Part shown: piece after piece, positions 9,063 to 43,797 of the stretch
How positions within the stretch are numbered: position 1 is the stretch's first letter
How the letters are laid out: each line of letters starts with the position of its first letter
Assembly: GCF_000247645.1 (NCBI RefSeq)
Contig: NZ_AHWA01000004.1
Location: 1,302,001-1,366,000 of the forward strand
Origin: Salinibacterium sp. PAMC 21357
GTDB lineage: Bacteria; Actinomycetota; Actinomycetes; Actinomycetales; Microbacteriaceae
Direction of reading: 5' to 3'
Length of the DNA stretch: 64,000 nt
Notes under the pieces: generated by a model
Told to the model about the DNA's origin: nothing
Database searches by the model: none
Seen by the model: only the letters and a program-made list of their open reading frames with translations
Program-made: the position numbers and the translations under genes

Positions 9063-9239
9063 TAGTGTTCCCGGGGCATGTTGTGGCAGCGGCCGAGCTT
9101 GCTCAGGATCTTGCTCCAGTAATTTTGGTAGCCCGTTGTTCGAAGTGGGCTATTCGGTCGACAACAGTAACCCCAGTCTACCGGACTGCCCTTCAGCTAC
9201 TGCGTCGATCGACGGCAGCGGGGCATCCGCAGCGCAGTT

Positions 9240-9884: not shown

Positions 9885-9969
9885 TACTTAATTGTAAATT
9901 GTGTGCGTCAATCTGCGGCAAGCGACCCGCGATCAAGCGGAAACTGTGCAATCGGCATAGTGTCTGTAC

Positions 9970-25903: not shown

Positions 25904-25942
25904 TGGAGCCAATCCTAATCTGGTCTCTCCCGGCTGTTGTGC

Positions 25943-27196: not shown

Positions 27197-28362
27197 TGTG
27201 TACCCCCTGCAGTAAACGTCGCGGAAATAGCATCAACTACGCGTTCGGCAGCGGCCCGAATTGAATGGTTCTTTGATGCCCATTCGCTCAACCGTCGACG
27301 GCCCTTGTCGTCCAGGGGTGCTGCGGCGAAAGTTTCGAGGGCGCCCACCACGGCGGAAACGTTATAGGCAACGGCAACGCCACTACGCTGCGAAAGCTCC
27401 GCCTCAGCAATGAAAGGAATCGTGGGCCCCGGGCCGGTAAACACCACAGGGCAGCCTACTGCCATAGACGAATACACCTTCGAGGTGAAGGCGTAGTCAT
27501 AGCCGGCCGAAGGCTTCAAGCTCGCTAGCGACGCAGTCGCATTTGCGAGAATGGGGACAAGTTCAGCGCCAGGAATAGGATCGCGAAATTCGATGGCGGT
27601 TACGCCGGCTGTCTGCGCGAGCTCTTTCAATCGCTCCTTCTCAGACCCGTTCCCGACGAAGAGCAGACTGTAGTGAGGATGCCGTTCTGAGAAAGCGGCG
27701 AATGCCATGATGAAGATTTCCGCACCATGCCACTCTGAAAACGAACCAGCGTAGACAAAGTACGGTGAATCGCTTGTAGAGGTTGGCTCGTAGTGAAAGA
27801 CGGAAGTGTCAGCGCCGAAGCCGACAACCGTCGTTGGGGTCACAACCCCCAGCTCGCGCACTCGATCAACGACTCCTTGCGAGATTGTGACGGCTGCCTT
27901 CGCTCCCTGCATGGCAAATTTTTCTACCCACCGCAGCAGCGAAAGCACGATCGACGATGAAGTAGTCATGCGTGCAGCATCGGACCACACATCTGCTGCA
28001 TCGTATACGTATGGTCGACCGAGCAGCGTGGTGATGACCCGCACGACAGCACCGGTTGTCGGTGGTGGTTCCACCACGTAGAGGTCGGCGCGAGGGCCGA
28101 ACAACATCCTAAAAGCGAGGGGAATATCGAAGCTCAAGTAGGGGATGTAGCCGCGCACGTACCCACCGCGGTCGCGAATGACTGACGCTCGACGCACACG
28201 AATGTCGGGGTCGTCCGAGATGAGGGCCCCGCGTGGCGGCGATGAGGTGAGGACAGTTACCTCATGCCCTGCCCGCACCAAGGCCGCAGCTATTGCGCTG
28301 AGCATAAAGGAGGCGGCGGACGGCTCTGGGTCGTAGATCCGGCTGACGATTGTGATCCGCAT
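27193..28362 (-). CDS. Family 4 glycosyltransferase (WbuB-like)
   Basis: A 389-residue GT-B retaining glycosyltransferase. The N-domain begins MRITIVSRIYDPEPSAASFML, as in WbuB/WcaI-type L-fucosamine or aminosugar transferases. The C-domain shows Y-F-V-Y-A-G-S-F-S-E-W-H-G near 194-206, the L-L-F-V-G-N-G-S-E-K-E-R block near 225, and the E-x7-E-like region around KVYSSMAVGCPVVFTGPG near 289-306. GGAGTAGGAA precedes the ATG. It lies between paralogues A and B of the other transferase family, 5 bp after paralogue B. Confidence 0.83.
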   Translation of the reverse strand: MRITIVSRIYDPEPSAASFMLSAIAAALVRAGHEVTVLTSSPPRGALISDDPDIRVRRASVIRDRGGYVRGYIPYLSFDIPLAFRMLFGPRADLYVVEPPPTTGAVVRVITTLLGRPYVYDAADVWSDAARMTTSSSIVLSLLRWVEKFAMQGAKAAVTISQGVVDRVRELGVVTPTTVVGFGADTSVFHYEPTSTSDSPYFVYAGSFSEWHGAEIFIMAFAAFSERHPHYSLLFVGNGSEKERLKELAQTAGVTAIEFRDPIPGAELVPILANATASLASLKPSAGYDYAFTSKVYSSMAVGCPVVFTGPGPTIPFIAEAELSQRSGVAVAYNVSAVVGALETFAAAPLDDKGRRRLSEWASKNHSIRAAAERVVDAISATFTAGGTQ

Positions 28363-28367
28363 CGTTC

Positions 28368-29540
28368 CTACTCCGAGAGAAAGTGCTGCTCGAGAACTGC
28401 TCGTGACATCCGACCGTCATGGGCATGCCGGATAAAAGCCGGTCCGCGCGCCGCGATTGTGCGGTAATAATCTCGGCGCACGGCGATGTCGCGAATGACA
28501 TCCTCCAGAGTGTCAATGTTTGCTTCAAGGATCGGGAGTTCTAGACCGGTTTCTTGCAGAACAACCCCTCGGGCTTGCTCGCTCACGTGCGCTACCACGA
28601 GTCGGCCTGAAGCCATGGCTTCACAAGACGCAACTCCATAGTCCCCGGCGCGAAATTGGTCGAGCACGACATCAGCTCCGGCATACATGGCCGGCATCTC
28701 AGCTTGAGTCTTTCCTGTGACGTGAATGTAGTCAACGATTCCCTCCGACTGCAACCGTTCTAACGCTGGAGCGATGTGCATCGTGCCCTTCGGTAAAGGA
28801 TTCGAGGGGATGTGAACGACGCGTAGGCGTTTGTTCTCTAGCAGGGGTTCGGAGTTAGCCCAAAGGTCTGGTTCAATGACGACGGGGAGCAGGTGCGCGA
28901 AGGGGACGTCGAGAAGCAATCCGGGGGTGGACACAAAGGTTGGAGCCGCGATGTCGTCGAGCAATGCCATATTTGAGAGCACAATTTTTTCGATGGGGGC
29001 GACTGGAGTCCAATCATCATTGCTGAAATATGACCACTGCTCCAAGGCCTTATGCCTACTGGGTAGGCGAATGTCGGTGCCGTGGCAGATCATTCCGACG
29101 GTTACGCCACGCGCTCTGAGGGCTGCGACTTGCCGGCGAATGTCAGCGCCAAACATACCTCCAAGGATGGGCGATTCGGCCTCGATCATGACGTGGGTAT
29201 AGCCCTCGGTCAGCTCGGCAAACAAGTCGCGTTGCCAACGTCTGGAGTGTTCCATCGTGCGCCAACGTACGGAATAGTCTGTCGCATATCCGAACGGATT
29301 AGTCTCCAGGCACACCATGTTTCGGCCGTCGACATCGGGGTTCTCTGCCGCCGCTCGAGCCCAGCGATGGCCTTGGCCTGCATAGTTCGTCGGACCGATA
29401 TATAGCCGGACTCGTCTGTCTCGTTGCGCGAGTGGCGGCGGCGGAATCGGGACCTTGTTGACACGGTCAATGGTTGATGCGACGAAATCTTGCACTACCG
29501 ATGGCACTAGATTCCAGACCATTTTCGCTGTCGGATGCAC
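28368..29540 (-). CDS. Glycosyltransferase, GT-B type, paralogue B
   Basis: About 390 residues. It shares with its neighbours RLYIGPTNYAGQGHRWARAA, M-I-C-H-G-T-D-I-R-L-P-S-R-H, F-V-S-T-P-G-L-L-L-D, and DQFRAGDYGVASCEAMASGR followed by LVVAHV. The N-terminal helix preceding these is diverged. I start it at GTG 29540 because AAGGGGAG lies 9 nt before that codon and the start then falls 20 bp after the previous stop; a TTG at 29585 would overlap the upstream gene. Likely a transferase in the same pathway; donor and acceptor unknown. Confidence 0.74.
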   Translation of the reverse strand: MHPTAKMVWNLVPSVVQDFVASTIDRVNKVPIPPPPLAQRDRRVRLYIGPTNYAGQGHRWARAAAENPDVDGRNMVCLETNPFGYATDYSVRWRTMEHSRRWQRDLFAELTEGYTHVMIEAESPILGGMFGADIRRQVAALRARGVTVGMICHGTDIRLPSRHKALEQWSYFSNDDWTPVAPIEKIVLSNMALLDDIAAPTFVSTPGLLLDVPFAHLLPVVIEPDLWANSEPLLENKRLRVVHIPSNPLPKGTMHIAPALERLQSEGIVDYIHVTGKTQAEMPAMYAGADVVLDQFRAGDYGVASCEAMASGRLVVAHVSEQARGVVLQETGLELPILEANIDTLEDVIRDIAVRRDYYRTIAARGPAFIRHAHDGRMSRAVLEQHFLSE

Positions 29541-29560
29541 GAAGAAGTTCTCCCCTTGGG

Positions 29561-30799
29561 TTAGGTGGTTCCCGGCTTCAGCCAAGAATCGATGAGTACG
29601 TGTGCGCTCAACCGACCGTCGTGAACTTCGGAGACGAATCCGACGCCTGCGTCTCGGATGTCGTCCAAGCGGTTACGGTCGGCTGCGAGTCCCCGCAGTA
29701 CCTGTTCGAGAGTATCAGGGGTTGCTTCGATGACCGGGAGCTCAATTCCCGTCGTCTCTTTCACCACGTCGCGCACGTCATCGATCACGTGCCCTACCAC
29801 CACAGCGCCAGCGGCCATTGCCTCGCAGGCGGCTACCCCATATGAGCCCGCCCTGAATTGATCGAGCAAGACGTCGGCTTTGTGAAAAACGGCGGGCATG
29901 TCTTCAGACGCGACACCAGAAACCAGCGAGAATTCGATGACCCCCTCTTGATGGAGACGGTCAAGCACCGGCAGCACGAGAGGCGTTCCTTTGTTCACCG
30001 AGGCAGAAGGCGCGTGGACTACGCGCAGCTTGTTCTCGCTGGAGCATCGAGTGCGCTCGATATTCTGCCACCGGGAGACGTCAACAACGACCGGGCACCA
30101 AATCCCGTTGCTGACGTCCGCGAGAAGGTCCGGTGTGGAAACGAAAACCGGTCCCCCGGAGCGGTCAAGGATCTCTCGATTGTGCTTCGCGAGGTACTCA
30201 AGTCGGGGGGTGTAGACCGCGTGGTCGTTGTACAGAGACCACGGGGTCCGGGTGACGTGTCTGCTCGGTAGGCGGATGTCGGTGCCGTGCGCCATGAACG
30301 CAATGTGTACGTTGCGTTCGCGGAGCGCTTCTATCTGACGTCGGAGGTCGCGTCGCATCAGTCGCCCAAAGAGAGGCTCTTCAGCCTCAACGAGTACATG
30401 GGTGGCGTGCGAGGCAACAGCATCCAATTGTCGTCGTTGCCACAGTCGGTCGTTGTGGTAGACCGACACTGGAACCAGCAAGTCAGACACGAAGGAGAAA
30501 CCGCCAGGCACATCGATCGCCATGTTTCGCGCGGCGATGGAGGGGGCGGCGTGCTCAATCGCCGCGCTCCACGCTCTGCCTTGCCCGGAGTAGTTCACCG
30601 GGGCTATCAAAACTCGCTGCTCCGACGGGGGGAAGGTAGTGACGGCCGTCGACCCGGGAGTCTCTGGCGTGCCCAGCCTGCGCGCAGCAACGCGGCCGAA
30701 CAAGCTCATCGGGTGATTGGCAACATAGTCAATCGTCGCATTCAGAACCCGTGGCAGTCGGTTTCGGTCGGAAAGACGGGCGGCAATCCGGGCGATCAT
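29561..30799 (-). CDS. Glycosyltransferase, GT-B type, paralogue C
   Basis: About 412 residues, third member of the tandem family. It shares RVLIAPVNYSGQGRAWSAAI, FMAHGTDIRLPSRHVTRTPW, F-V-S-T-P-D-L-L-A-D-V, and DQFRAGSYGVAACEAMAAGA followed by VVVGHV. Its N-terminus MIARIAARLSDRNRLPRVLN aligns with that of paralogue A (TDRLVRNRSRLPLWLN), which supports the ATG at 30799; a GTG at 30871 would add 24 basic residues and overlap the ABC exporter gene by 32 bp. It follows the exporter gene by about 40 bp. Confidence 0.74.
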   Translation of the reverse strand: MIARIAARLSDRNRLPRVLNATIDYVANHPMSLFGRVAARRLGTPETPGSTAVTTFPPSEQRVLIAPVNYSGQGRAWSAAIEHAAPSIAARNMAIDVPGGFSFVSDLLVPVSVYHNDRLWQRRQLDAVASHATHVLVEAEEPLFGRLMRRDLRRQIEALRERNVHIAFMAHGTDIRLPSRHVTRTPWSLYNDHAVYTPRLEYLAKHNREILDRSGGPVFVSTPDLLADVSNGIWCPVVVDVSRWQNIERTRCSSENKLRVVHAPSASVNKGTPLVLPVLDRLHQEGVIEFSLVSGVASEDMPAVFHKADVLLDQFRAGSYGVAACEAMAAGAVVVGHVIDDVRDVVKETTGIELPVIEATPDTLEQVLRGLAADRNRLDDIRDAGVGFVSEVHDGRLSAHVLIDSWLKPGTT

Positions 30800-30839
30800 G
30801 GCTTTCGCTCGACCGAATTCTGGTTGATCGGAGGCACGA

Positions 30840-32687
30840 TCACCGTGGCGTCTCTTCCTGCGCAACCTCACTATCGCGCGTCACAACAGTGTGGAGCCCG
30901 GCTTCTTCAGCGAGCCCAGCGAGGGCGACTTGCTCACCGAATTCAGGGAGCTTGAGTGCAAGCTCGGAAAACGTTCCTTTGCCGACGATTCGGCCGCCTT
31001 CAAGATAAGCAACCTGATCGTAATCTTTGATCGTCGAAAGGCGGTGGGCGACAGAGATCAGCGTCACTTCACCGTGGAGGCTGCGGATTGCTTGAGTGAT
31101 CTCGTCCTCAGTTTTGGTATCGAGCGAGCTTGTCGCTTCGTCGAGTACGAGAACCAAGGGGTCGGCGTAGAGAGCACGGGCAATTCCCAAACGCTGTTGT
31201 TGCCCGCCCGAAAGTGATACTCCACGTTCCCCAATGCGCTCGTCGATTCCTTTGTCGCGCGAAGCGACGAGTGTCGTGAGGCGCGCTTTTTCGAGTGCAT
31301 CTCTGACACGATCTCGATCGAAGTTGTCGTCCCACGTGAGGGCGACATTTTGCGCGATAGAGCCGTCGAAGAGGGCAACGCGCTGTGGAACATAACCGAC
31401 ACGCTCGCGCCAGGCGCGAATTACGTCAGTCAAGGGCTCACCGTCAATGTCGATAAGTCCGCCGGTCGGTACGCTCAGGCCCAAGAGCAAGTCGACAAGA
31501 GTTGATTTGCCGGCGCCGGATGGCCCCACGATGCCCAATGAACTTCCGAGAGGAATATCGAGTGATAGCTCACGAAGAACTCTCTCGCTCGAACGTGGGT
31601 AGGTAAAGGAAACGGAATCGAGACGCAGCATTTGCGGGTTGGCCGGGAGCACAGCAACGTCCACCGCGGTTGTGGTCGCGGAGACATTTTTCTCGGCGCC
31701 TGTTAGATCTTTGATGACGTCGGATGCGGTCGGGATAGAGGCTGTCGCCTGCACCACGCTGGCCAAGACGCTGTTGATTGCCGGGATGAGGCGGAATCCT
31801 GTGGCAGCGAACAACGCAACCGAGGAGACAGCTCCGTTGAGTCCCGACGTGAGGTACGCCGCGAACCCAATCAATAAGAAGCCTCCTACAAGGGCAGCTT
31901 CGAATGCATAGAGGGGGAGGATTCCGAGGAACGAACCATTGCGGCGAGCACGAACCGAATGGATTCTGCTTTCCGTCACGACATCCGCGACCTGATCGAG
32001 GCGGTTGCGAAGGCTGAGCTCCTTAAGCGCATCGACCATCTCGGTCATAAGAATTGCTACGCGATAGCTGTAATCGCGGTTGACTTGGCCAGCTTCTAAC
32101 GATCGTCGGGTAACCACCTTGTTGACGAGCAGAGTGACGAGAGAAAGATAAACGAGCGCGATGACTGATGTCATCGGGTCGGTGAATACGAGGACGGCAA
32201 GAACCAGAGTGAACGTTGTGAGGGCGCTCGGAACTACCGCTAGCGGAAGGATGAAGCCGGCGATTGTTCCGGCAATTCCGGCATCGGCGATGCGAGTTAT
32301 TTCTGCGACACTTCGTTTTGACCGCTCTTCCCAACTGGAGTGAATGTAGGCGCGGAAGAGCCGTCGTCCGATCTCAAGTTCATACTTAGCGAACTGCTTT
32401 GTTGCTACCCAGTGCAGCGCAACGGCGAACACGCTCTTGGAGATGATTAGAAGGCATGCGATCAGTACGAGCAACGGTGTAGCAGAAGGTGGCAGCACGC
32501 CAATGACGGGAATGTCAATGTCTGTCCCGTTAACCGCAGGTGCTATAACGATCGCCAGCAGAGCCATCGCCGCGACATCCAGAATGGTCAACGAGCTTGT
32601 CGTCACCATGTACCAGGTGTAGAACCGTCGCGCTCCCGCTGGGAGCAATGGAAGCAGTTCTTTAAGGGTTGCCCAGATACGTTTCAT
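30840..32687 (-). CDS. ABC exporter, fused permease-ATPase (PglK/MsbA-like)
   Basis: A 615-residue half-transporter that would work as a homodimer. Six membrane helices occupy about 20-320, followed by the ATPase: Walker A G388-P-S-G-A-G-K-S-T396, signature L-S-G-G-Q 492-496, Walker B L-V-L-V-L-D-E 511-517 and H-loop His548. Sequence style and neighbours (five glycosyltransferases downstream in the same direction) fit a lipid-linked oligosaccharide flippase of the PglK type, moving the glycan across the cytoplasmic membrane. It is probably the first gene of this transcription unit; TAGTCT lies 9 nt before the ATG. Confidence 0.88.
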   Translation of the reverse strand: MKRIWATLKELLPLLPAGARRFYTWYMVTTSSLTILDVAAMALLAIVIAPAVNGTDIDIPVIGVLPPSATPLLVLIACLLIISKSVFAVALHWVATKQFAKYELEIGRRLFRAYIHSSWEERSKRSVAEITRIADAGIAGTIAGFILPLAVVPSALTTFTLVLAVLVFTDPMTSVIALVYLSLVTLLVNKVVTRRSLEAGQVNRDYSYRVAILMTEMVDALKELSLRNRLDQVADVVTESRIHSVRARRNGSFLGILPLYAFEAALVGGFLLIGFAAYLTSGLNGAVSSVALFAATGFRLIPAINSVLASVVQATASIPTASDVIKDLTGAEKNVSATTTAVDVAVLPANPQMLRLDSVSFTYPRSSERVLRELSLDIPLGSSLGIVGPSGAGKSTLVDLLLGLSVPTGGLIDIDGEPLTDVIRAWRERVGYVPQRVALFDGSIAQNVALTWDDNFDRDRVRDALEKARLTTLVASRDKGIDERIGERGVSLSGGQQQRLGIARALYADPLVLVLDEATSSLDTKTEDEITQAIRSLHGEVTLISVAHRLSTIKDYDQVAYLEGGRIVGKGTFSELALKLPEFGEQVALAGLAEEAGLHTVVTRDSEVAQEETPR

Positions 32688-32746: not shown

Positions 32747-33757
32747 TTACCACTTAACGATCATGCCTCCCCATGACAACCCGACTCCGAAGCCGAGGAT
32801 CATGACTCGCATCTCCGGCTTCAACGCGCCACGTCGTTCAGCTTCGACCAGAGCGATCGGAATCGTCGACGACACGGTGTTTCCCGACTCTTCGAGTGCC
32901 ACAAAAAACTTCTCTTTTGGTACGCCCAACTTCTTGCGAAGGTGCTCCAGCATGAACGCGTTCGCTTGGTGGAAGACGAAGAGATCGATGTCGTCGAGTT
33001 CGAGCGAAGCTTTTGAGAGAATCGAATCAACTGAACTCGGAACAATGTCGAGCGTGAAGTTGAAAATCTCCGGGCCGTCCATGAAAATGTCGTACTGGGA
33101 CTCTTCGATGTTGCGCTCGCTGATAGCGGCCTTGGGCGATATGTCAGTGCCAGGTCGGAGCCCACCATTCGGCACAATCAGGTTTTTTGCACCAGCGCCG
33201 TTGGTGCCATACGTAATTCCTGTGAAGTGATCTTCGTCGTCATCGGAGCCAGTGATCAAGGTGGCCGCTGAGCCGTCTCCGAATATTGTCCGAACTGATT
33301 TGTCTTTGGGGTTAATGAACTTGCTGTAGGTGTCGGCGGTGATCACGAGAACGTTGGTCACCTGCCCAGATTCGATGAGTCCTTTTGCGAGGCCAAGAGC
33401 GTAAATGTAGCCGGAGCAACCGAGGGTGATATCAGTTGCGCCTATCTCCGTGCGAAGACCTAGTCCATCCTGAACGAGGCACGCCGTTGTCGGCAGGTAG
33501 TAATCGGGGCTTTGGGTACACACGATTAGATACTCGATCGTCGAACGGTCGATATTTTTCTGTTTGAAAAGCCGCTCACCGGCAGCAATTGCCAAATGCG
33601 ATGAAAACTGGTCGGGGGCGGCAATGTGCCGACGTTCAATACCTGTTTTCGCCGAGATTTTGTCGACGCTCCACTCGGGAAACTCCGTTGCGAGGTCGAG
33701 GTTAGTGAGGACATTCTCGGGGAGGTAGTACTCGACTGCCTGAACGCGTGCTTTCAT
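32747..33757 (-). CDS. Beta-ketoacyl-ACP synthase III (FabH-like)
   Basis: A 336-residue thiolase-fold condensing enzyme. The Cys-His-Asn triad is visible: Cys114 (T-L-G-C-S-G-Y), His263 (F-V-F-H-Q-A-N) and Asn293 (E-S-G-N-T-V-S-S-T), with the G-F-G-V-G-L-S-W-G-G C-terminal loop. FabH-type enzymes condense a starter acyl-CoA with malonyl-ACP. Genome context (ACP and ketoreductase beside it, no dehydratase or enoyl reductase) suggests a one-round dedicated role rather than bulk fatty acid synthesis. The ATG is preceded by TAGACT with 7 nt between, so the transcript is probably leaderless. Confidence 0.88.
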   Translation of the reverse strand: MKARVQAVEYYLPENVLTNLDLATEFPEWSVDKISAKTGIERRHIAAPDQFSSHLAIAAGERLFKQKNIDRSTIEYLIVCTQSPDYYLPTTACLVQDGLGLRTEIGATDITLGCSGYIYALGLAKGLIESGQVTNVLVITADTYSKFINPKDKSVRTIFGDGSAATLITGSDDDEDHFTGITYGTNGAGAKNLIVPNGGLRPGTDISPKAAISERNIEESQYDIFMDGPEIFNFTLDIVPSSVDSILSKASLELDDIDLFVFHQANAFMLEHLRKKLGVPKEKFFVALEESGNTVSSTIPIALVEAERRGALKPEMRVMILGFGVGLSWGGMIVKW

Positions 33758-33783
33758 GCTGTTCAGTCTACCGATGCGCGCCC

Positions 33784-34620
33784 CTATTGCGCCGTGTACC
33801 CGCCATCGATCACTAGCGAAGTACCAGTGGCCCAGCGAGACGCCGGCGAAACCAGATAGAGGATGGCCTTCGCGACGTCATCAGCCGAACCGATTCCGAG
33901 AGGGTGCGCTGCTTCAACATCCGCCCATGCTTGCTCTCCGATAGCGGCGCGGATGCCCGCAGAAAGTTCCGTTTCAACGATGCCGGGGGCGACACTGTTG
34001 ACCCGGATCCCTTCGCGAGCGAGCTCAATTGCGAGCGAACGTGCGAGCGAAGCAACGGCGCCTTTGGTCGCTGAATAAACGCTAACTCCCGCTTGACCAG
34101 TCATGCCGGCGACAGACGAAAGAAATACGATGCTTGAGTGAGCGGCGCGTACTTGTTTGTGCCGGAAGCCCTTCGCGAGCATGACAGCCGTCGAGACGTT
34201 GATTTCAAACATTGAGGACAATTGCTCTGCCGTAATTCCCCTCAGCGCTGACGTGCTGTGGACGCCGGCAGCATGAACGAGACCGCTCAGCGGGCCCATC
34301 TCGGTTGCGATGCCTTTGAGGAGTGCAGGAATACCGTCGAGTTGAGAAAGGTCGTATTGCACGACGGTGTGGCCAGACCCGGAAAGACTAGCTTTCACTT
34401 CTTCTAATGCATCCGTACGTCGCGCGCACAGAGCGATGCGCGCACCGTGGCGGCTCGCTTCGACCGCGAAAGCGCGACCGATTCCAGAGGAAGCGCCCGT
34501 GACGACGATCGCGGCGCCATCGAGCTCAAGATAATCAGCGATGTTATTTCGCCTGGTCAGCGCCGTTGACGAGGGCGAAGAGGTCTGCGACGGTCGTTGC
34601 GTTAGAAAGATCATCGGCAT
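33784..34620 (-). CDS. SDR-family 3-ketoacyl-ACP reductase-like (FabG-like)
   Basis: Classical short-chain dehydrogenase. The cofactor motif V-V-T-G-A-S-S-G-I-G, a mid-chain H-A-A-G-V-H, the Ser in F-L-S-S-V-A-G-M and the catalytic Y-S-A-T-K are all present, and the C-terminus ends W-A-T-G-T-S-L-V-I-D-G-G-Y. FabG-like chemistry would turn a 3-ketoacyl-ACP into a 3-hydroxyacyl-ACP. The start is uncertain: the ATGs at 34620 and 34614 lie inside the ACP gene, and no ATG, GTG or TTG occurs in frame after the ACP stop before the Rossmann motif. A rare start (for example CTG near 34560 or ATC near 34542) is possible. Confidence 0.82.
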   Translation of the reverse strand: MPMIFLTQRPSQTSSPSSTALTRRNNIADYLELDGAAIVVTGASSGIGRAFAVEASRHGARIALCARRTDALEEVKASLSGSGHTVVQYDLSQLDGIPALLKGIATEMGPLSGLVHAAGVHSTSALRGITAEQLSSMFEINVSTAVMLAKGFRHKQVRAAHSSIVFLSSVAGMTGQAGVSVYSATKGAVASLARSLAIELAREGIRVNSVAPGIVETELSAGIRAAIGEQAWADVEAAHPLGIGSADDVAKAILYLVSPASRWATGTSLVIDGGYTAQ

Positions 34621-34777
34621 TGACGGTCACGTTGGCCTCGGAATCGATGTCAGCGATGAAGCTGATGTTCGAGAGGGAATCCCAGTCGATATCCTCGAGA
34701 ACATCCGTCATTGAAACCGTTTGCGGTTCAACCTCGAGAATGCCCGCAATGAGTGAAATAAATACGCTTTGCTCCAT
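34544..34777 (-). CDS. Acyl carrier protein
   Basis: A 77-residue carrier protein. The phosphopantetheine site is D-W-D-S-L-S-N-I near residues 31-38, with Ser34 as attachment residue, in an acidic four-helix context. It is too diverged to be the housekeeping AcpP and lies with a ketosynthase, a reductase and an N-acyltransferase, so I read it as the carrier of a special acyl group. The start is set at ATG 34777 because TACAAT, a near-perfect -10 box, ends 7 nt before it; an upstream ATG at 34795 would place the promoter inside the gene. Confidence 0.85.
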   Translation of the reverse strand: MEQSVFISLIAGILEVEPQTVSMTDVLEDIDWDSLSNISFIADIDSEANVTVNADDLSNATTVADLFALVNGADQAK

Positions 34778-34784
34778 AGCAACG

Positions 34785-34830
34785 ATTGTACTCATAACGT
34801 CTGGGCAGAGTCCTCGGGTCGCGCTAGCCT
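34785..34830. promoter_or_regulatory. Divergent leaderless promoters between ACP and LpxD-like genes
   Basis: Minus-strand TACAAT (34790-34785) lies 7 nt before the ACP start; plus-strand TAGCCT (34825-34830) lies 7 nt before the ATG at 34838. Only 60 bp separate the two start codons, so carrier and acyltransferase are expressed from one shared control region. Confidence 0.5.
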
Positions 34831-34837
34831 GAGAAGC

Positions 34838-35755
34838 ATGGATACCAAATCAGTACGAGTCAGTGCTATCGCTGAAGCACTCGGCGCCCCGTTTTCGGGA
34901 AGTGACCAGGTTGTTAATGGCATCGCTACGCTGAGCGACGCGACAGCGGGTACGTTCGCATTCGTTGCTGACCCGGTCAAATACGCAGACTCGTTTCTCG
35001 CGGCGACTGCGCGTGGAGCGGTGTTGCTTGTTCCCATAGGCACTGGAGTATCCACGGTCGGCGAAGGGGCGTTGCTCGAAGTGGAGAACCCGCGCGGGGC
35101 ATTTGCCATTGCGGTAGCTAAGTTCTTCGTTCCGGTCATCGAGGCAGGAATTTCGTCGACCGCTTCGGTCCATCCGACCGCTCAGGTGTCTCCTTCGGCC
35201 TACATCGGTGATTTCACGGTTCTTGGGCCGGGGGTGGTTGTGGGAGACAGCGCCGAGATTCGTCACCACGCTGTCCTTGCTGCAAACGTTCGCGTTGGGG
35301 AGGGCGCGCTGATCAAGAGCCACGCCGTTATTGGCGAGGAGGGTTTTGGCGTAGATAAGGACCCTGATGGAAACAACGTGCGTTTGCCCCATTTAGGCTC
35401 CGTGGTTATTGGCAGCCACGTTGAAGTGGGTAACTTCACGACAGTCTGTTCGGGCACGATTTCCCCGACGCGGGTGGGTGACTATACAAAGATTGACGAC
35501 CATGTGCACATATCGCACAACGTGCAGATCGGTCGCAACGTGATTATTACGGCATGTGCAGAGATATCGGGCAGCGTGAAAATCGGCGATGATGTTTGGA
35601 TTGGTCCAAACGCGTCCATCATTCAAGGCGTAGTTATCGGGGCACGGTCGCTAGTCGGAATCGGCGCCGTCGTCACTCGGAGTATTCGCGAGAACGAAGT
35701 GCAATTCGGAAATCCCGCGAAACGAATCAGAGACAATCACCGGCCAAAGGAGTAG
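34838..35755 (+). CDS. LpxD-like N-acyltransferase, left-handed beta-helix
   Basis: A 305-residue protein with the full LpxD layout: an N-terminal uridine-binding-like domain (about 1-100, with G-I-A-T-L-S-D-A-T-A-G-T-F-A-F-V), a long hexapeptide-repeat helix (about 105-285), and a short C-terminus G-N-P-A-K-R-I-R. The LpxD catalytic histidine is matched by His227 in H-I-S-H-N-V-Q-I-G. LpxD transfers 3-hydroxyacyl chains from ACP to the 3-amino group of UDP-glucosamine. This organism looks monoderm and should not make lipid A, so I infer N-acylation of a UDP-amino sugar for the surface glycan, using the ACP encoded next door. Confidence 0.82.
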   Translation: MDTKSVRVSAIAEALGAPFSGSDQVVNGIATLSDATAGTFAFVADPVKYADSFLAATARGAVLLVPIGTGVSTVGEGALLEVENPRGAFAIAVAKFFVPVIEAGISSTASVHPTAQVSPSAYIGDFTVLGPGVVVGDSAEIRHHAVLAANVRVGEGALIKSHAVIGEEGFGVDKDPDGNNVRLPHLGSVVIGSHVEVGNFTTVCSGTISPTRVGDYTKIDDHVHISHNVQIGRNVIITACAEISGSVKIGDDVWIGPNASIIQGVVIGARSLVGIGAVVTRSIRENEVQFGNPAKRIRDNHRPKE

Positions 35756-35779: not shown

Positions 35780-36454
35780 CTAGTAATTTTCGGCAGGCAC
35801 TTTATCGAACCACCAGAATGGGTGTGTAAGCACCTGCATGAGCGGTTCTTTTCCAACCCATAGGCCGAAATGTCCCTCACGCCAGTTGCCGCTGCTGTCG
35901 CTGAGGTACTTCATCGTCGGCGTGGTAAACCGGTCTTCGTAGGCATGGTGGGTAACGGTATCGGACCAACGTTCGAGTAGGTTGTCTGCAAACTCGATAC
36001 CGCCCATGCGAGCTGGTTCGTGTGAGCTGAAGCCTATGAGGCTGCGATTCAGTGCTGCCTCGAAAACAGTGCGCTGTCGATCCGCCCAATCGTTATTATT
36101 GCCGCCCAAAACTTCGTTGATTCCTCCCTCAAGATGAAGGCCGACTTCGTGGCCCATGTCTTCCATCTCACGAAGGGCAGCGAGTGCGGGGAGGCTCATC
36201 AGGTTGTAGCCGCGTGCGTGTACGCGAACGAAAATAGAGGACGCGCAACCCTCTTGCGCGTCGATTCGAGCCACCCGTAAAGCTTGATCAATGCTGTTGT
36301 CGAGGTCGTGGCGCAGAACTACGTGCTTCGGTTGTGGATTGCGAATGTACTCACCAAATCCAGTCACCGCGTATCCGTTTTCCTTGTATGCGCGAAGCAC
36401 ACGAGCATAATCGTGAAATGAGAACCCGAATTCGGCTGGCGGGGCGAGTTGCAT
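35780..36454 (-). CDS. Polysaccharide-deacetylase-like protein (WbmS-like)
   Basis: About 224 residues with the NodB-fold metal-site pattern: V-V-L-R-H-D-L-D-N near 45-53 (Asp and His ligands), G-H-E-V-G-L-H-L-E-G-G near 108-118, and G-F-S-S-H-E-P near 147-153. The closest style is the WbmS-like group found in O-antigen and flagellin-glycan loci, of unresolved chemistry. There is no signal peptide, so it acts in the cytoplasm, probably on a nucleotide-linked or lipid-linked sugar. Start taken at ATG 36454; an in-frame TTG lies three codons upstream. Confidence 0.7.
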   Translation of the reverse strand: MQLAPPAEFGFSFHDYARVLRAYKENGYAVTGFGEYIRNPQPKHVVLRHDLDNSIDQALRVARIDAQEGCASSIFVRVHARGYNLMSLPALAALREMEDMGHEVGLHLEGGINEVLGGNNNDWADRQRTVFEAALNRSLIGFSSHEPARMGGIEFADNLLERWSDTVTHHAYEDRFTTPTMKYLSDSSGNWREGHFGLWVGKEPLMQVLTHPFWWFDKVPAENY

Positions 36455-36496
36455 GAAAACCAATCTGTCGTGAAGTCGAAGCCAGCCTATCGGTTG

Positions 36497-37684
36497 TCAG
36501 TTCTGGGTTGGTTCGGTCGATGAGCCGGTGGGAGATGAAATTTTGGCTGCCTTTCGGGATTTCCGTGAATTATCCCAAGCTCGGATTCGACGTTCAAACG
36601 GTTTTTCTACGAAATGATGCAGGCCCGCGGCACCGAGTAGCGAGACGACGAAAAGAACCACTAACCAGACGACGTTCCACCAACTCTGTGGCTGATTGCC
36701 GAACGCAAGCAGAAAGAGGTACACGAAAGTTGCGTGCACAAGGTAAAACGCAAATGACCACTGCCCAAGTAGGACCTGAATTCGGCTCGCAAAGATCGAT
36801 TTTTTACCGGCTAGGGCCTCTGAAGTGACAGCAACAATAGTCAATGCGCAGGCAAGAATCACGAACTCGTTGGTGAAGTGACCCACCACCCAACCGGCCA
36901 CCGTATCGGGAATGAACCTTTGAACAATCGTGACTCCCATGAGTAGGCCCACGAGAGAAGAAAGCCCTAACCAGACGGGCACGCGCGGGCGCCATCCATT
37001 TCGAAACGCCCATGCTAATCCCATCCCGATGGCGAATTCGGTGATGCGAATGAGTGGCGTCGGAACGCCATCGAAAGTATCGGATGGCGAAGCAACAACC
37101 ATGATGCGGTAGGCGAAGGCGATCCCGGCAACGGTGCCAACAAAGACTAGGGACCCCCGCGTTGAGACTCGATTGAGGAATCGGCTGATGTAGGGATGCA
37201 GGGCGTAGAAGAATGCCTCACAAGTGAGTGTCCACGCCGCAGGGTTGCCCGAGAACAGGATGGCCGGGACAGTCGACCATCCTTGGAGTAGGACAAATGA
37301 AAGAGCTAATACTCCAAAGTCGACTGGCTTGACCCACGCCGGATCAGGTATTGACGCGAAGGTGTAAAAGACGGGGATCGCGAAGATGAGTGCGACGAAG
37401 TGGGCGGGGTAGACACGGGCGAAGCGACGCCAGTAGAACGTGGACTGCGATACACGCGGCGATGCCGACCAAGTGAGTACGAACCCGGATAAAACAAAGA
37501 AAAATGTAACTCCGAAGAATCCCTGTCCCAGGAATGCTGCAACGGCTGTCGGCAGCGGGGCGAAAACTTGAATGTGATAGGTGAATACAAAGAATGCGGC
37601 CCACCAGCGGAGCCCGGTGAGCGCGTCGATTCGCGGCATGGAAGTGGAAAGTGCTTGACTTTCCCCAGTCGCTGCTAGTCGCAT
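36497..37684 (-). CDS. Membrane acyltransferase (acyltransferase-3 / OafA family)
   Basis: A 395-residue integral membrane protein with about ten helices. The family signatures are R-I-D-A-L-T-G-L-R-W-W-A near 18-29 and F-F-V-L-S-G-F-V-L-T-W near 62-72, with the conserved F-Y-W-R-R-F-A-R-V-Y-P near 83-93. Such proteins O-acylate exported polysaccharides at the membrane, usually with acetyl groups. Position within the glycan locus supports O-acylation of its product. The C-terminus is a short basic, serine-rich tail. It is divergent from the GT4 gene at 37904. Confidence 0.88.
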   Translation of the reverse strand: MRLAATGESQALSTSMPRIDALTGLRWWAAFFVFTYHIQVFAPLPTAVAAFLGQGFFGVTFFFVLSGFVLTWSASPRVSQSTFYWRRFARVYPAHFVALIFAIPVFYTFASIPDPAWVKPVDFGVLALSFVLLQGWSTVPAILFSGNPAAWTLTCEAFFYALHPYISRFLNRVSTRGSLVFVGTVAGIAFAYRIMVVASPSDTFDGVPTPLIRITEFAIGMGLAWAFRNGWRPRVPVWLGLSSLVGLLMGVTIVQRFIPDTVAGWVVGHFTNEFVILACALTIVAVTSEALAGKKSIFASRIQVLLGQWSFAFYLVHATFVYLFLLAFGNQPQSWWNVVWLVVLFVVSLLGAAGLHHFVEKPFERRIRAWDNSRKSRKAAKISSPTGSSTEPTQN

Positions 37685-37903
37685 TATTACCGTTCTCTGA
37701 ATCGATCGGCTCTAGCCTAACTGCCCGAGCTCCTCGAATACGGACGCCGGGAGCGACCGTCGCGCTGACCCCTGCTTGTAAGATTAGGGTCAGACAGCTT
37801 CTGGCGAAGGCCCGGTGGTCGCACCACTGTGCTCCGGTTCACCAGCATCAGGGTTCTTTTCTGCCTCGCCCGAGCGTCTTCAACAACGTGGGGGAGTGTA
37901 ATC

Positions 37904-39058
37904 GTGAAACCGAGTCTGCTGATTCTTAGCTTCTCAGATATCGCAAATGACGCTCGTGTACTCAAGCAAGTACGAGAGTTTTCCTCCCGCTATAGGGTGA
38001 CCACCTGTGGCTTCGGTCAGCAGCCCCACCCTGGGGTTGAACATCTCGAAGTGGATGCTGGTGCCCCGACTCACACGAACTCGTTGCTACGTCAGCTTCG
38101 CGAAGTTGGCACAATCGCGGCCAGAGTCACCGGGTGGCATCATCGCATTTATAACGACACCGGATACGTCCTGCAGGCTCGAAGGATGCTCCGGGGGCGA
38201 CGCTTCGACCTAGTCCTCGCCAACGACGTCGACACTATTGACGTTGGTCTGCGGTCAGCAGGGCCAGCCGGCGTACACGCAGATCTGCACGAGTTTTTTC
38301 CCGGGCTGCATAGTGATAGTTCGCGACAAGGCCGAAAAGCTACCGCTTACATGGAGTGGCTTGTGCGCTCGTTTGCTACTAGAGCCGCCTCAGTTACAAC
38401 GGTAAGCCAGGGCATAGTGGAGGCATACCGAGAGTATGGAATTTCGGCGCAGGTGGTCACCAATGCCTCTCCTCGCGCAGACTACACCCCTGGAATCGTC
38501 TCTAGCCCAATCCGGCTAGTACACAGCGGGAATGCTCAACCAAGTAGGCAACTCGAAATTATTATGCGAGCCGTCTCGGAGTCGTCAGCGAACGTGACGC
38601 TCGACCTTCTTCTCATGCCGAACGACGTTCTGTATCTCGAACAGTTGTCGGCGCTGAGCATGCAACTTGATTCTCGCGTGAGAATACTCGAACCGGTGCC
38701 GCAATCCGAGTTGATCGGTGTCCTCAACTCATACGACGTTGGCGTGCATGTGTTGCCTCCCACGAGCTTCAACAACGCTAATGCGCTCCCCAACAAGTTT
38801 TTTGATTACGTGCAGGCACGACTCGGGCTCATCATTGGGCCGTCAGTCGAGATGGTCAGACTTCTTGAGGAGTACGGAGTTGGGGCCGTCACGAGAGATT
38901 TTACAGTGGCAGCCGTTCGTGACGTGCTCGATACTTTGACACCGCAACTAGTTACGCAGTGGAAGCAGCAGTCGCAAGTCGCTTCGGAGCCGCTCGGTGC
39001 AGACGCTCAAATTGCCACGTGGGTCGCCGCGATAGAGAACCTCGAGGCGAAAATTTAG
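37904..39058 (+). CDS. Family 4-like glycosyltransferase
   Basis: A 384-residue GT-B transferase. The N-terminus KPSLLILSFSDIANDARVLK is typical of group 1 transferases, the C-domain starts near P-I-R-L-V-H-S-G-N-A-Q-P-S-R-Q-L (about 206-221), and a donor-binding segment is N-A-L-P-N-K-F-F-D-Y-V-Q-A-R near 294-307. The start is GTG 37904 with GGGGGAG 8 nt before it; upstream in-frame codons have no such site. It is the only glycosyltransferase of the locus on the plus strand and is followed, convergently, by the epimerase gene 4 bp away. Confidence 0.8.
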   Translation: MKPSLLILSFSDIANDARVLKQVREFSSRYRVTTCGFGQQPHPGVEHLEVDAGAPTHTNSLLRQLREVGTIAARVTGWHHRIYNDTGYVLQARRMLRGRRFDLVLANDVDTIDVGLRSAGPAGVHADLHEFFPGLHSDSSRQGRKATAYMEWLVRSFATRAASVTTVSQGIVEAYREYGISAQVVTNASPRADYTPGIVSSPIRLVHSGNAQPSRQLEIIMRAVSESSANVTLDLLLMPNDVLYLEQLSALSMQLDSRVRILEPVPQSELIGVLNSYDVGVHVLPPTSFNNANALPNKFFDYVQARLGLIIGPSVEMVRLLEEYGVGAVTRDFTVAAVRDVLDTLTPQLVTQWKQQSQVASEPLGADAQIATWVAAIENLEAKI

Positions 39059-39062
39059 CTCG

Positions 39063-40109
39063 TTAGTGGGCTTTGGCTAGTGCAGAGTAGACGCGAGACG
39101 ATGCATCACCGATTCCGTACGGCGAGGCATCGGTCGGCGAAGGTATCGCTCTTGTTAACGCTGCGAGAATTTCCTCAGCGGAGTTAGCGAGCACGTTCCA
39201 GCCGAGGTCTACCGTCTCTTGCCATTCGGTCTCTGTGCGTAGCGTTGTGCACGGAACTCGAAGAAGAAATGCCTCTTTCTGCAATCCTCCCGAGTCAGTG
39301 ATCACTCCGCTGCTCGCAAGAACGGCCCGCACAAGGGCGGGATACGAAGCAGGGGGTTGGAGCTGAATCGAGCCGCGTTCTAGGTCGATGTTGGCTTCCG
39401 CAGCCTTGGCGATGAGTCGTGGATGGGCGAACAGCGTCACAGGCAGAGGTGACGACGCGAGTGCACGAACGATCATTTCTAATCGAGCTGGGTCGTCAGT
39501 GTTCTCTGCTCGATGTATCGTCGCAACGAATGTGCCGCTAGGTTCGGACTTTTCATCGGACGCCTGCAGGCTGTTGCGCACGTGATTGAGAACGTCGACC
39601 ATCACGTCTCCTACGTCGACAGCGATTGCCCCGAGGCCCTCTCGGGCGAGTTGCTCCACGGCGCTGGCCGTAGGAGCGAGACACAGGTCGGCCGCGTGGT
39701 CGGTCAGTACCCGGTTATGTTCTTCGGGCATCCGGCGATTAAACGAGCGCAAACCGGCCTCGAGGTGGGCGACGGGAAAATGAAGTTTTACAGCGCTCAG
39801 GGCCGCTGCCAACGTGGAATTTGTGTCTCCATAAACCAGCACCCAGTCGGGTTGGTGTCGAAGCAGAACATCGTCGAGCGCGGCGAGCATCGCGCCAGTT
39901 TGTGCACCATGACCTGCGGAGCCAATATTGAGCGACTCGTCCGGCGCGGGAATATCTAGATCTCGGAAGAACGCATCAGAAAGCATCTCGTCATAATGTT
40001 GTCCGGTGTGCACAATGACGTGTTCTACATCCCGCAACGCGAATTCGCGCGCAATGGCAGACAGTTTCACAAACTGCGGACGGGCCCCTACAACACTCAA
40101 TACCTTCAT
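39063..40109 (-). CDS. UDP-N-acetylglucosamine 2-epimerase family (WecB/WbpI-like)
   Basis: A 348-residue non-hydrolysing 2-epimerase with two Rossmann domains. Recognisable blocks are MKVLSVVGARPQFVKLSAI at the N-terminus, H-T-G-Q-H-Y-D near 35-41, V-Y-G-D-T-N-S-T near 93-100, H-L-E-A-G-L-R-S near 115-122, P-E-E-H-N-R near 128-133 and T-D-S-G-G-L-Q-K-E near 272-280. It interconverts UDP-GlcNAc and UDP-ManNAc, or acts on the 2,3-diacetamido uronate as WbpI does; the neighbouring genes favour the latter. TATTGT lies 6 nt before the ATG (leaderless). Confidence 0.88.
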   Translation of the reverse strand: MKVLSVVGARPQFVKLSAIAREFALRDVEHVIVHTGQHYDEMLSDAFFRDLDIPAPDESLNIGSAGHGAQTGAMLAALDDVLLRHQPDWVLVYGDTNSTLAAALSAVKLHFPVAHLEAGLRSFNRRMPEEHNRVLTDHAADLCLAPTASAVEQLAREGLGAIAVDVGDVMVDVLNHVRNSLQASDEKSEPSGTFVATIHRAENTDDPARLEMIVRALASSPLPVTLFAHPRLIAKAAEANIDLERGSIQLQPPASYPALVRAVLASSGVITDSGGLQKEAFLLRVPCTTLRTETEWQETVDLGWNVLANSAEEILAALTRAIPSPTDASPYGIGDASSRVYSALAKAH

Positions 40110-40191: not shown

Positions 40192-41502
40192 GTGAAGATC
40201 GCCGTTATCGCTCTCGGAAAAATTGGTCTCCCCCTCGCCGTTCAGTTCGCGTCTAAGGGTCATGATGTCGTCGGTGTCGATATCAATACCTCAATCGTTG
40301 AGCTGGTGAATAAGGGCTCGGTTCCGTTCCCTGGTGAGGCGGATCTGGACAGATTGCTTGCTGAAGTGGTGGCGCAAGGAAAGCTAGTCGCCACGACAAG
40401 TTATGAGGAGGCGGTACCCAACGCCGATGCTGTGGTCATCGTCGTTCCGCTCATAGTGGATGCCGAAGCCCGCCCGGACTTCGGGCCGCTTGACTCCGCG
40501 ACGAATTCTCTCGCCTCGACGATCACACCAGGCACCGTCGTAGCCTATGAAGTCACCCTGCCCGTCGGCACCACACGTAACCGATGGAAGCCATTGCTGG
40601 AGAAGGAATCAGGGCTTGTCGAAGGTGAGGACTTCCACCTCGTGTTCTCTCCTGAACGCGTCTTCAGCGGTCGAATTTTTGCAGACCTGCGCAACTATCC
40701 CAAGCTGTTGGGGGGATTCTCTCCGGCTGGCGTATTGGCTGCCACAGATTTCTATAACGCTGTTCTCGATTTTGATGAACGTCCGGATCTGAGCAAACCC
40801 AACGGCGTCTGGAACTTGGATTCCGTGGAGGCTGCGGAGTTCGCCAAGCTCGCAGAAACCACGTATCGCGACGTCAACATAGGTTTGGCGAATCAGTTCG
40901 CACGATTTGCTGATCGGAATGGTATCGACGTGTCGAAAGTAATCGAAGCCACGAACTCTCAACCGTTTAGCGACATCCATCGACCCGGAATCTCTGTCGG
41001 CGGGCACTGCATTCCCGTGTACCCGCGTCTTTATCTCTGGAACGATCCGGACGCGACGATCGTGCGGGCCGCTAGAGAAGCGAACTCAGAAATGCCTGAG
41101 TATGCGGTGGGTGTGCTGGAGAGAGCCTTTGGTTCGTTGAGCGGATTAAAGGTCGTCGTATTCGGCGCCGCTTATCGTGGGGGCGTCAAAGAGACCGCGT
41201 TCTCCGGTGTGTTTCCCACTGTCGCGGCGCTCAAAGCTCGCGGCGCGACTGCAGTTGTGCACGACCCATTGTTCACCGACGCTGAACTCAACTCGTTCGG
41301 GTTCGAAGCTCATTCGATGGGTGATCCCGCCGATGCCGCGATCATTCAGACGGATCACCGTGAATACCGGGGACTCGTCCCTGCCGACGTTCCCGGTATC
41401 CGTGCACTCGTCGATGGTCGCCGAGTGACGTCGCCCGAGGCCTGGAGAAGCGTTAGCTATCAGGTCATCGGCGGAGGAATGGCAGTCCAGCCAGTTCGCT
41501 AG
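40192..41502 (+). CDS. UDP-N-acetyl-hexosamine 6-dehydrogenase (WecC/WbpA-like)
   Basis: A 436-residue NAD-dependent nucleotide-sugar dehydrogenase that oxidises C6 of a UDP-HexNAc to the uronate. The dinucleotide motif is A-L-G-K-I-G-L-P near 7-14, the substrate-binding region is F-S-P-E-R-V near 152-157, and the catalytic cysteine is Cys273 in V-G-G-H-C-I-P-V. The first glycine of the usual GxGxxG is replaced by Ala7. GAAAGG precedes the GTG start by 6 nt. Its 3' end overlaps the convergent oxidoreductase gene by 4 bp. Confidence 0.88.
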   Translation: MKIAVIALGKIGLPLAVQFASKGHDVVGVDINTSIVELVNKGSVPFPGEADLDRLLAEVVAQGKLVATTSYEEAVPNADAVVIVVPLIVDAEARPDFGPLDSATNSLASTITPGTVVAYEVTLPVGTTRNRWKPLLEKESGLVEGEDFHLVFSPERVFSGRIFADLRNYPKLLGGFSPAGVLAATDFYNAVLDFDERPDLSKPNGVWNLDSVEAAEFAKLAETTYRDVNIGLANQFARFADRNGIDVSKVIEATNSQPFSDIHRPGISVGGHCIPVYPRLYLWNDPDATIVRAAREANSEMPEYAVGVLERAFGSLSGLKVVVFGAAYRGGVKETAFSGVFPTVAALKARGATAVVHDPLFTDAELNSFGFEAHSMGDPADAAIIQTDHREYRGLVPADVPGIRALVDGRRVTSPEAWRSVSYQVIGGGMAVQPVR

Positions 41503-43555: not shown

Positions 43556-43641
43556 GCTCCGTGTACCTCAATCAATTGGTCTGGCCCCACCTCGCAGTAG
43601 TGCGTTTCAGTTACTGGGCAGATGAAGTCTACCGACAAGTA

Positions 43642-43672
43642 GGGTTCTGTGAGTGGCTGTCGCACAGAGCCC
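43642..43672. repeat. Inverted repeat (hairpin) upstream of the FG-GAP gene
   Basis: GGGTTCTGTG at 43642-43651 and CACAGAGCCC at 43663-43672 form a 10-bp stem (one G-T pair) with an 11-nt loop, about 125 bp before the coding start. It could be a protein-binding site or a leader hairpin. A TAGAAT box at 43742-43747 is a possible -10 for the downstream gene. Confidence 0.4.
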
Positions 43673-43797
43673 ACTCAGGTAGGTCCGCAGGAAATTTGAA
43701 TGCTCATACGCTCAATCCCGAGCCAGCGCAACTCTGTCGCGTAGAATGCGACGGCACGGTTCTGTTCACAAGGCTCGTGCAGGGGGCGGGAGCGGAA

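Follow-up and report, generated by a model that had tools for sequence, protein, structure and literature searches.

The flagellin viosamine island of Pseudomonas syringae makes N-(3-hydroxy-1-oxobutyl)viosamine; vioA, vioB, vioT and vioR mutants lack the modified sugar, and the roles of vioS and acp were assigned by homology (PMC3927599; this and the other papers mentioned are quoted from the parts of their text available to us). In Flavobacterium psychrophilum, wfpC-G encode, again by homology, an acyl carrier protein (ACP) specific for the O-polysaccharide, two ketosynthases, a ketoreductase and a PglD-type transferase, and a 3,5-dihydroxyhexanoyl group (C6), seen by nuclear magnetic resonance, was assigned to these genes (PMC6519341). 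The making of UDP-GlcNAc3NAcA by WbpB, WbpD and WbpE is cited in PMC3628348. Sets of LuxE, LuxC, Acp, ligase and FabG genes have further been reported in enterobacterial and Aeromonas flagellin islands. Here we describe a locus of Salinibacterium sp. PAMC 21357, a member of the Microbacteriaceae, in which a supply module of this known kind lies beside a gene for an LpxD-like acyltransferase. The DNA analysed, called the window in the following, is a stretch of 64,000 nucleotides (positions 1,302,001 to 1,366,000 of the forward strand of NZ_AHWA01000004.1, assembly GCF_000247645.1), to which all coordinates are relative. An earlier note on this DNA had named four adjacent genes in 32747-35755; all four open reading frames are present and belong to the superfamilies it stated, and they encode an ACP, a reductase of the short-chain dehydrogenase/reductase (SDR) type, which probably is a ketoreductase (KR), a FabH-type ketosynthase III (KSIII, here KS) and the LpxD-like protein.

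Our reading, which we hold with moderate confidence, is that a 3-hydroxybutyryl group from a dedicated ACP is moved by the LpxD-like enzyme to N3 of a diaminouronic acid of the surface glycan. It is built on the gene families, the catalytic residues, the linkage of the genes, the presence of a second ACP, the lack of LpxC and the fact that no second hexapeptide acyltransferase was found in the window; from these we infer the starter, the chain length, the donor, the order of the steps, the acceptor with its position, and the final glycan. Condensation by the KS would join malonyl on the dedicated ACP to a starter supplied as acyl-CoA, most likely acetyl-CoA. A single reduction by the KR would turn the condensation product into a short 3-hydroxyacyl-ACP, which is 3-hydroxybutyryl-ACP for an acetyl starter. 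From the ACP, the LpxD-like enzyme would then transfer the acyl group onto the amine of a UDP-amino sugar. This amine most likely is the 3-amino group of the UDP-GlcNAc3NA that the cluster's 6-dehydrogenase, Gfo and DegT enzymes would produce. The acylated sugar would subsequently be epimerised to the manno form and built into the surface glycan. In this scheme, the LpxD-like enzyme probably takes the place that WbpD has in the Pseudomonas pathway and that is empty in the WbpA/B/E/I-like pathway of the cluster.

The four genes and their acyl supply

The ACP, KR and KS genes all lie on the minus strand, and the LpxD-like gene diverges from them on the plus strand. The ACP (listed at 34544-34795, likely start 34778) carries its serine in a WDSL motif and reaches 29.2 bits in the Pfam PP-binding family (cut-off 20.8). 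The KR, listed at 33784-34620, matches adh_short, adh_short_C2 and KR, and the KS (32747-33757) matches ACP_syn_III together with its C-terminal domain. For the LpxD-like gene a start at 34769 is listed, the probable ATG is at 34838 and the end at 35755; the protein contains the LpxD N-terminal domain PF04613 (31.6 bits, cut-off 30.8) and Hexapep. The starts at 34778 and 34838 were judged probable from relatives, and if the former holds, a divergent intergenic region of 59 bp (34779-34837) separates the ACP from the LpxD-like gene, in which a promoter scan found no sigma-70-like site. The listed KR start (34620) falls within the ACP gene, and the same is true for the KR of Microbacterium sufflavum (L014; compared loci and genomes carry L and G labels); the conserved part of the KR begins at about 34540, its true start being uncertain. 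No ATG, GTG or TTG stands near this conserved beginning, so an unusual start codon or an overlap with the ACP gene may apply.

That the module forms a dedicated acyl-ACP pathway, as the earlier note held, agrees with the genome, in which it is a second ACP/KS/KR module distinct from the housekeeping ACP. PF00550 matches twice, once at the cluster ACP and once at C5:459315, and a search with the KS at E 1e-4 gives five stretches including its own; of the remaining ones, the two longest are 31% and 27% identical, and the latter sits at the second ACP with proteins resembling FabD and FabF by eye. To call the system self-contained was nevertheless too strong, since the cell has to provide the malonyl and load the ACP; a protein that is FabD-like by eye lies in the housekeeping cluster. 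The KS residues Cys114, His263 and Asn293, named before, were confirmed in the alignment, and the protein clears PRK09352, a general KSIII model (287 vs 249). KSIII-like acyltransferases differ in the Cys-His-Asn triad, and because this triad is intact in 13 of 13 cassette-type KSs aligned, an acyltransferase of that type without condensing activity was ruled out.

Also as noted earlier, no separate gene for a dehydratase or an enoyl reductase is present among the 20 window proteins scanned, and one KS with one KR fits a C4 3-hydroxyacyl group, since two KSs go with the C6 group in the available part of the F. psychrophilum account (PMC6519341). Both points bear on the possibility that the acyl-ACP is extended by housekeeping enzymes and that what the LpxD-like enzyme attaches is a long 3-hydroxy fatty acid, resulting in a lipid A-like sugar. 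Such a product would suit the LpxD architecture of the transferase, but it is hard to reconcile with an own KS and ACP, with the lack of the two further enzymes, with two KSs giving only C6 in F. psychrophilum and with a genome without LpxC, and we regard it as highly improbable. LpxC (PF03331) was not found in the genome at E 0.001, the same search being positive in four of 14 genomes as a control; without LpxC, a part of the LpxD-like gene in lipid A synthesis was ruled out.

The catalytic His of the LpxD-like protein is kept, as previously stated, in the form of His227 (ISHNV; counted from Met1), which we take to be the equivalent of His239 in Escherichia coli LpxD and of His247 in the Chlamydia trachomatis enzyme. 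Phe43 of the C. trachomatis enzyme corresponds to Phe in all 12 rows of the LpxD-like alignment, and Tyr49 to Tyr or Phe in nine of them (not in L014, L018 and L022); both are presumably functional positions in the chlamydial enzyme. The predicted structure has a mean pLDDT of 79.9, is weak over its last quarter, and finds LpxD in all of its best 25 fold matches. The NeuD/VioB model is missed by the protein (104.5 vs 160.8).

Linkage in relatives and exchange of supply modules

Searching named genomes with the LpxD-like alignment yielded 13 loci. Co-conservation of the four genes in other Actinobacteria had been named beforehand as a check, and in three further genomes the ACP-KR-KS set indeed adjoins the LpxD-like gene, namely those of Microbacterium sufflavum (L014) and Microbacterium MYb66 (L018) and a metagenome-assembled genome (MAG) of Leucobacter (L021, a 3-kb contig), their KRs being 58%, 59% and 49% identical to the one in the window. 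The arrangement in L021 differs, as the module lies on the other side, between the LpxD-like gene and a gene for a deacetylase-fold protein discussed below, and the link was therefore either kept through rearrangement or arose twice. Both genes are rare: counting the own genome, the LpxD-like gene occurs in 3/150 genomes of the family at E 1e-20, in 4/398 at 1e-40 and in 4/396 genomes of the phylum at 1e-25, and a KS of this kind (E 1e-80) in 8/299 family genomes. Since the set nonetheless stands beside the LpxD-like gene in three genomes, the linkage is above chance. With independent carriage, the chance that at least three of ten relatives have both KS and LpxD-like gene would be 0.0014, a figure for which the ten relatives and the rate of 7/298 were our choice, stem from different collections, and include with G766 a genome not searched for the KS. 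A chance neighbourhood of the four genes was ruled out by the three further genomes with their two arrangements.

An ACP match lies near the KS in all eight family genomes with this KS kind, a second KS in two of them, and a KR match within the 20 kb examined in four (the window, L068, L070 and L072). The ACP-KR-KS kind can also stand beside other transferases, namely a NeuD/PglD-type protein above cut-off in L068 and another hexapeptide protein in L070, which scores best with LpxA models, though below cut-off, and has FdtA and DegT as neighbours. Near ACP-KS pairs of two further relatives, proteins without Pfam match are encoded (L067, 11850-13019, 389 aa; L071, 8232-9392, 386 aa), the former with an HxxxDG-like motif by eye, as in condensation-type acyltransferases. 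That the module type tracks the LpxD-like tree was ruled out, because module types are mixed and L021 shares a starred branch with Leucobacter and G047 rows without module; long branches leave the deeper joins of this tree unsure, and the L021 row is partial.

Different supply sets can be found next to LpxD-like genes as well. In L082 (G766, same family), genes for an AMP-ligase, LuxE, LuxC and AcpS directly precede an LpxD-like gene 61% identical to that of the window, which is followed by deacetylase-fold, Gfo (83%) and DegT (77%) genes. L023, from an Aenigmatarchaeota MAG whose binning is unchecked, contains AcpS, ACP, AMP-ligase, LuxE, LuxC, a FabG-type KR, LpxD-like and deacetylase-fold genes, besides a hexapeptide protein, a 6-dehydrogenase and an epimerase. 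In L010, an ACP (by eye and weak match) and a KS of 28% identity diverge from an LpxD-like gene that is only distantly related (34%); UGD, Gfo and DegT lie nearby, and there is no match to the deacetylase-fold protein. LuxE/LuxC/ligase-type genes have no match in the window, which carries KS-KR-ACP. Within the annotated plasmid collection, the best KS match (47% identity) belongs to the viosamine-type flagellin island of Burkholderia glumae pBGF3, where flagellin, fliD, vioA, KS, ACP, SDR and acetyltransferase genes form a row; the KS is thus closer to this island than to the longest other matches in its own genome (31% and 27%).

Donor, acceptor and the points against the proposed reading

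Results that weigh against 3-hydroxybutyrylation at N3 are gathered in this section, together with the alternatives, the sugar genes of the cluster and a neighbouring gene. On the supply side, the KS stays below the NCBIfam cut-off for fabH (TIGR00747, 266.8 vs 292.1) and the KR clears no NCBIfam FabG model, its matches being mixed SDRs. Of the FabG-like reductase of the earlier note, the YxxxK motif (YSATK) is present; the Pfam name of adh_short_C2 is enoyl-ACP reductase, and we speak of a ketoreductase because of the gene context and because the SDR in the B. glumae island is 42% identical to the protein. The KS kind at E 1e-80 is found in one of 396 phylum genomes, the own one, and in four of the eight family genomes KS and ACP have no KR match within 20 kb. 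On a Deinococcus plasmid, a KS of 38% identity stands with an ACP among polyketide and peptide synthetase genes and not in a glycan locus, and a Parabacteroides locus combines an acetyltransferase, two carrier proteins, an AMP-binding protein, a KS and an SDR. Matches to the LpxD-like protein occur in 14 plasmid records, at least five of them also with a deacetylase-fold match (for 20 of the 21 records with such a match); among the matches listed, the other nine come from Neisseria, Acinetobacter, Enterobacter, Klebsiella and Pseudorhodobacter. Moreover, no glycan structure was found for such an organism.

The transferase itself misses the NCBIfam cut-offs for LpxD (TIGR01853, 185 vs 242.5; PRK00892, 200.5 vs 207). 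The position of the second LpxD active-site His, which we assume to be His276 in E. coli and His284 in C. trachomatis, is occupied by Gly264 and is Gly in 10 of 12 alignment rows, His being found only in L024 and L025, both of which resemble ordinary LpxD. Following the G-x-x-A motif, the C-terminal tail has 11 residues, compared with 25 and 38 in these two. The C-terminal helices of LpxD bind ACP, and with the second His missing and a short tail, ACP use is not evident from the protein's own sequence. Cut-offs, His and tail together rule out that the protein is LpxD proper, although it may, judged by its sequence, work like LpxD without being LpxD. The argument that a 3-hydroxyacyl-ACP is exactly the donor class used by LpxD enzymes consequently does not follow from the fold, and six relatives have the transferase without such a KS. 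In these six (G047 and Leucobacter L015, L016, L017, L019 and L020), the LpxD-like gene is present and no cassette-type KS was detected in the genomes, mostly drafts, at E 1e-40, so that the LpxD-like clade may accept another donor.

The same six relatives, together with the missing His and the short tail, would agree with an LpxD-like enzyme that is an acetyl-CoA-dependent substitute for WbpD, the module feeding some other transferase for O-acylation, for example the OafA-type membrane acyltransferase (Acyl_transf_3) encoded at 36497-37684 on the minus strand. In L066, ACP and KS come directly after OafA in a related glycan cluster, where the 20 kb examined contain neither an LpxD-like nor a KR nor a deacetylase-fold match; the three genes OafA, ACP and KS form an operon-like row there (7988-10439), and the cluster has Gfo and DegT matches. 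However, module and LpxD-like gene are adjacent, in two arrangements, in the window and in L014, L018 and L021, other ACP-type sets accompany LpxD-like genes in L023, L082 and L010, and L009, L015, L017 and L019 have OafA genes but not the module. We consider an acetyl-CoA-dependent enzyme with the module serving another transferase unlikely.

As for the acceptor, amino-sugar genes lie in the same cluster, in agreement with the glycan context of the earlier note. Proposed roles are those of WbpE for a DegT-type sugar aminotransferase (42479-43555, minus strand; WbpE is among, though not first of, 12 PDB matches at 1e-60), of WbpB for a Gfo/Idh oxidoreductase as sugar 3-dehydrogenase (41499-42479, minus strand), of WbpA for a nucleotide-sugar 6-dehydrogenase (40192-41502, plus strand; above the TIGR03026 cut-off) and of WbpI for a non-hydrolysing 2-epimerase (39063-40109, minus strand), which is WecB by NCBIfam. 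Five hexapeptide queries matched only the LpxD-like gene within the window, that is, no WbpD-like protein was found. Among 11 relatives searched, 10 have Gfo matches (1e-12; five at 52-74% identity, the rest about 28%) and nine DegT matches (1e-60), not all of them in the same cluster. The Gfo protein scores 179 bits with NF040723, UDP-N-acetylglucosamine 3-dehydrogenase, under the cut-off of 450, and has no PDB match named WbpB or WlbA at 1e-10. The best PDB match of the 6-dehydrogenase is named a hypothetical UDP-ManNAcA dehydrogenase. For the epimerase, the best PDB matches are UDP-GlcNAc3NAcA 2-epimerases (322 bits, vs 232 for UDP-GlcNAc 2-epimerase), but it also clears TIGR00236 wecB (250 vs 210). 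As far as sequence goes, epimerase and 6-dehydrogenase may instead make UDP-ManNAcA (WecB and WecC roles), apart from the 3-amino sugar. Because of the WecB and FabG cut-off results, our moderate confidence in N3 3-hydroxybutyrylation was lowered slightly.

The window protein scan further revealed five glycosyltransferases and an ABC transporter protein of the cluster (24806-32687, minus strand) and a GT4-type glycosyltransferase (37829-39058, plus strand). Three of four GT4-like proteins in 25943-30871 (25943, 28368 and 29561) match the same places in relatives and appear to be tandem duplicates. A large FG-GAP-repeat protein stands at the end of the glycan cluster (43540-46146), and one alike by eye occupies the same place in L082 (8367-10928).

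Immediately downstream of the LpxD-like gene, the minus strand encodes at 35780-36463 a protein that the earlier note did not mention, though it is a frequent LpxD-like neighbour. It is unannotated, with no Pfam, NCBIfam or PDB sequence match; four relatives lack a Pfam match as well, and a profile search of the family against PDB gave short, chance-like matches only. In its AlphaFold model (pLDDT 87.7), the predicted fold resembles carbohydrate esterase family 4 (CE4)/NodB, which makes the protein a putative deacetylase: the 13 Foldseek matches with E <=0.001 consist without exception of deacetylases and esterases of family 4 (query TM-scores of 0.41-0.53), with ArnD next at E 0.003. In the alignment of its relatives, H52-D53-x-D55 is nearly invariant, and His110, Asp189 and His214 are invariant; by eye, no residue stands out as the second metal His that is canonical in CE4. 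The gene accompanies the LpxD-like gene in 17 of 22 tabulated loci of actinobacteria, alphaproteobacteria and archaea, or in 13 of 18 without four plasmid loci, which were picked after both matches were known in their records. It is lacking in L009, L016 (where the contig ends), L010, L011 and L012, L009 being from the same genome as L008 and having a different hexapeptide protein; L024-L026, left out of the table, have no deacetylase-fold match. In six non-actinobacterial loci with the pair, no DegT match was found in the DNA examined (the DNA of L022 is limited to 8.9 kb, and that of L085 breaks off at a Gfo gene), and N3 acylation is thereby disfavoured for these six.

These data raise the question whether N-acyl groups are exchanged at N2, the CE4-fold protein deacetylating a UDP-HexNAc derivative and the LpxD-like enzyme re-acylating it from the ACP, in the manner of LpxC and LpxD in lipid A synthesis, but by means of a deacetylase of unrelated fold. 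The frequent company of the two genes, the six DegT-less loci, the uniform fold matches and the conserved residues are in favour of it. On the other hand, the 3-amino-sugar genes of the cluster would then be without acyltransferase, no sequence-level match links the protein to a known deacetylase, the TM-scores are low and the second metal His is not evident; for the window, we judge N2 exchange possible, but doubtful. In a wider frame, LpxD-like and CE4-fold proteins could constitute a widespread deacetylase/N-acyltransferase pair of monoderm bacteria and archaea, an LpxC/LpxD parallel without lipid A, which swaps the N-acetyl group of nucleotide sugars for an ACP-borne acyl group and whose supply modules can replace one another: KS-KR-ACP, LuxC/LuxE/AMP-ligase together with ACP or AcpS, or no module at all. 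This we offer as a tentative and rather doubtful suggestion.

Several loci outside the actinobacteria show the pair in other surroundings. On haloarchaeal plasmids of Haloprofundus and Halorientalis (L085, L086 and L091), its genes are about 1-4 kb apart, the LpxD-like proteins being annotated as DapH/DapD/GlmU-related or LpxD domain proteins and the deacetylase-fold ones as hypothetical. The pair occurs in an alphaproteobacterial cluster that by eye resembles a nonulosonic acid pathway (L022; NeuB- and NeuC-like) and, in Sphingomonas hankookensis (L087), in a row with N-acetyl sugar amidotransferase, HisH, an acetamidino modification protein and wecB, a context that hints at a service to other amino sugars too.

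Comparison with known systems

If the proposed function holds true, an LpxD-type, ACP-dependent N-acyltransferase would act outside lipid A synthesis, in a bacterium without LpxC, and N-(3-hydroxybutyryl) groups would be predicted in surface glycans of some Microbacteriaceae. Supply-module swaps around one transferase offer natural variants for studying the donor specificity of beta-helix acyltransferases. An uncharacterised deacetylase-fold family, furthermore, travels with LpxD-like transferases, haloarchaeal plasmids included.

With LpxD of lipid A synthesis, the protein described here shares the N-terminal domain, the left-handed beta-helix and the catalytic His, and it differs in scores below the NCBIfam cut-offs, the absent second His, the short tail and the lack of LpxC in the genome. 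The 6-dehydrogenase, 3-dehydrogenase, aminotransferase and 2-epimerase are candidate counterparts of enzymes of the WbpA/B/E/D/I pathway to UDP-ManNAc3NAcA of P. aeruginosa O5, but the window has the LpxD-like protein in the place of a WbpD-like one, and the epimerase also meets WecB. VioB we take to be a small transferase of the NeuD/PglD type, which is also its NCBIfam family name.

As far as the available parts of their descriptions allow a comparison, the viosamine islands (vioS-vioR-acp-vioB of P. syringae, orfB-D of P. aeruginosa PAK, B. glumae pBGF3) likewise combine KSIII, ACP, reductase, N-acyltransferase and aminotransferase in a glycan cluster; there, VioB acts on a dTDP-4-amino sugar, whereas here a full-length LpxD-like protein is joined to a UDP-GlcNAc3NA-like pathway in a monoderm actinobacterium. 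Within the same limits, wfpC-G of F. psychrophilum shares a dedicated ACP, ketosynthase, reductase and acyltransferase with our locus, with two KSs, a PglD-type transferase and a C6 group there, and one KS and an LpxD-like protein here. The enterobacterial and Aeromonas flagellin islands, so far as reported in the accessible text, have the same kind of LuxE, LuxC and ligase genes as those beside the LpxD-like genes of L023 and L082, the window carrying KS-KR-ACP instead. The suggestion that the complete donor cassette is undescribed can therefore be kept in part: cassettes with their own ACP are known from vioS/vioR/acp/vioB and wfpC-G, and for an LpxD-type transferase with an ACP-KR-KS module in actinobacteria no account appeared in the literature searched, which was covered in part, mostly by titles and abstract openings. 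Within this literature, the supply module belongs to a known kind, and it is the LpxD-type partner in an actinobacterium, together with the interchange of modules around it, which is new.

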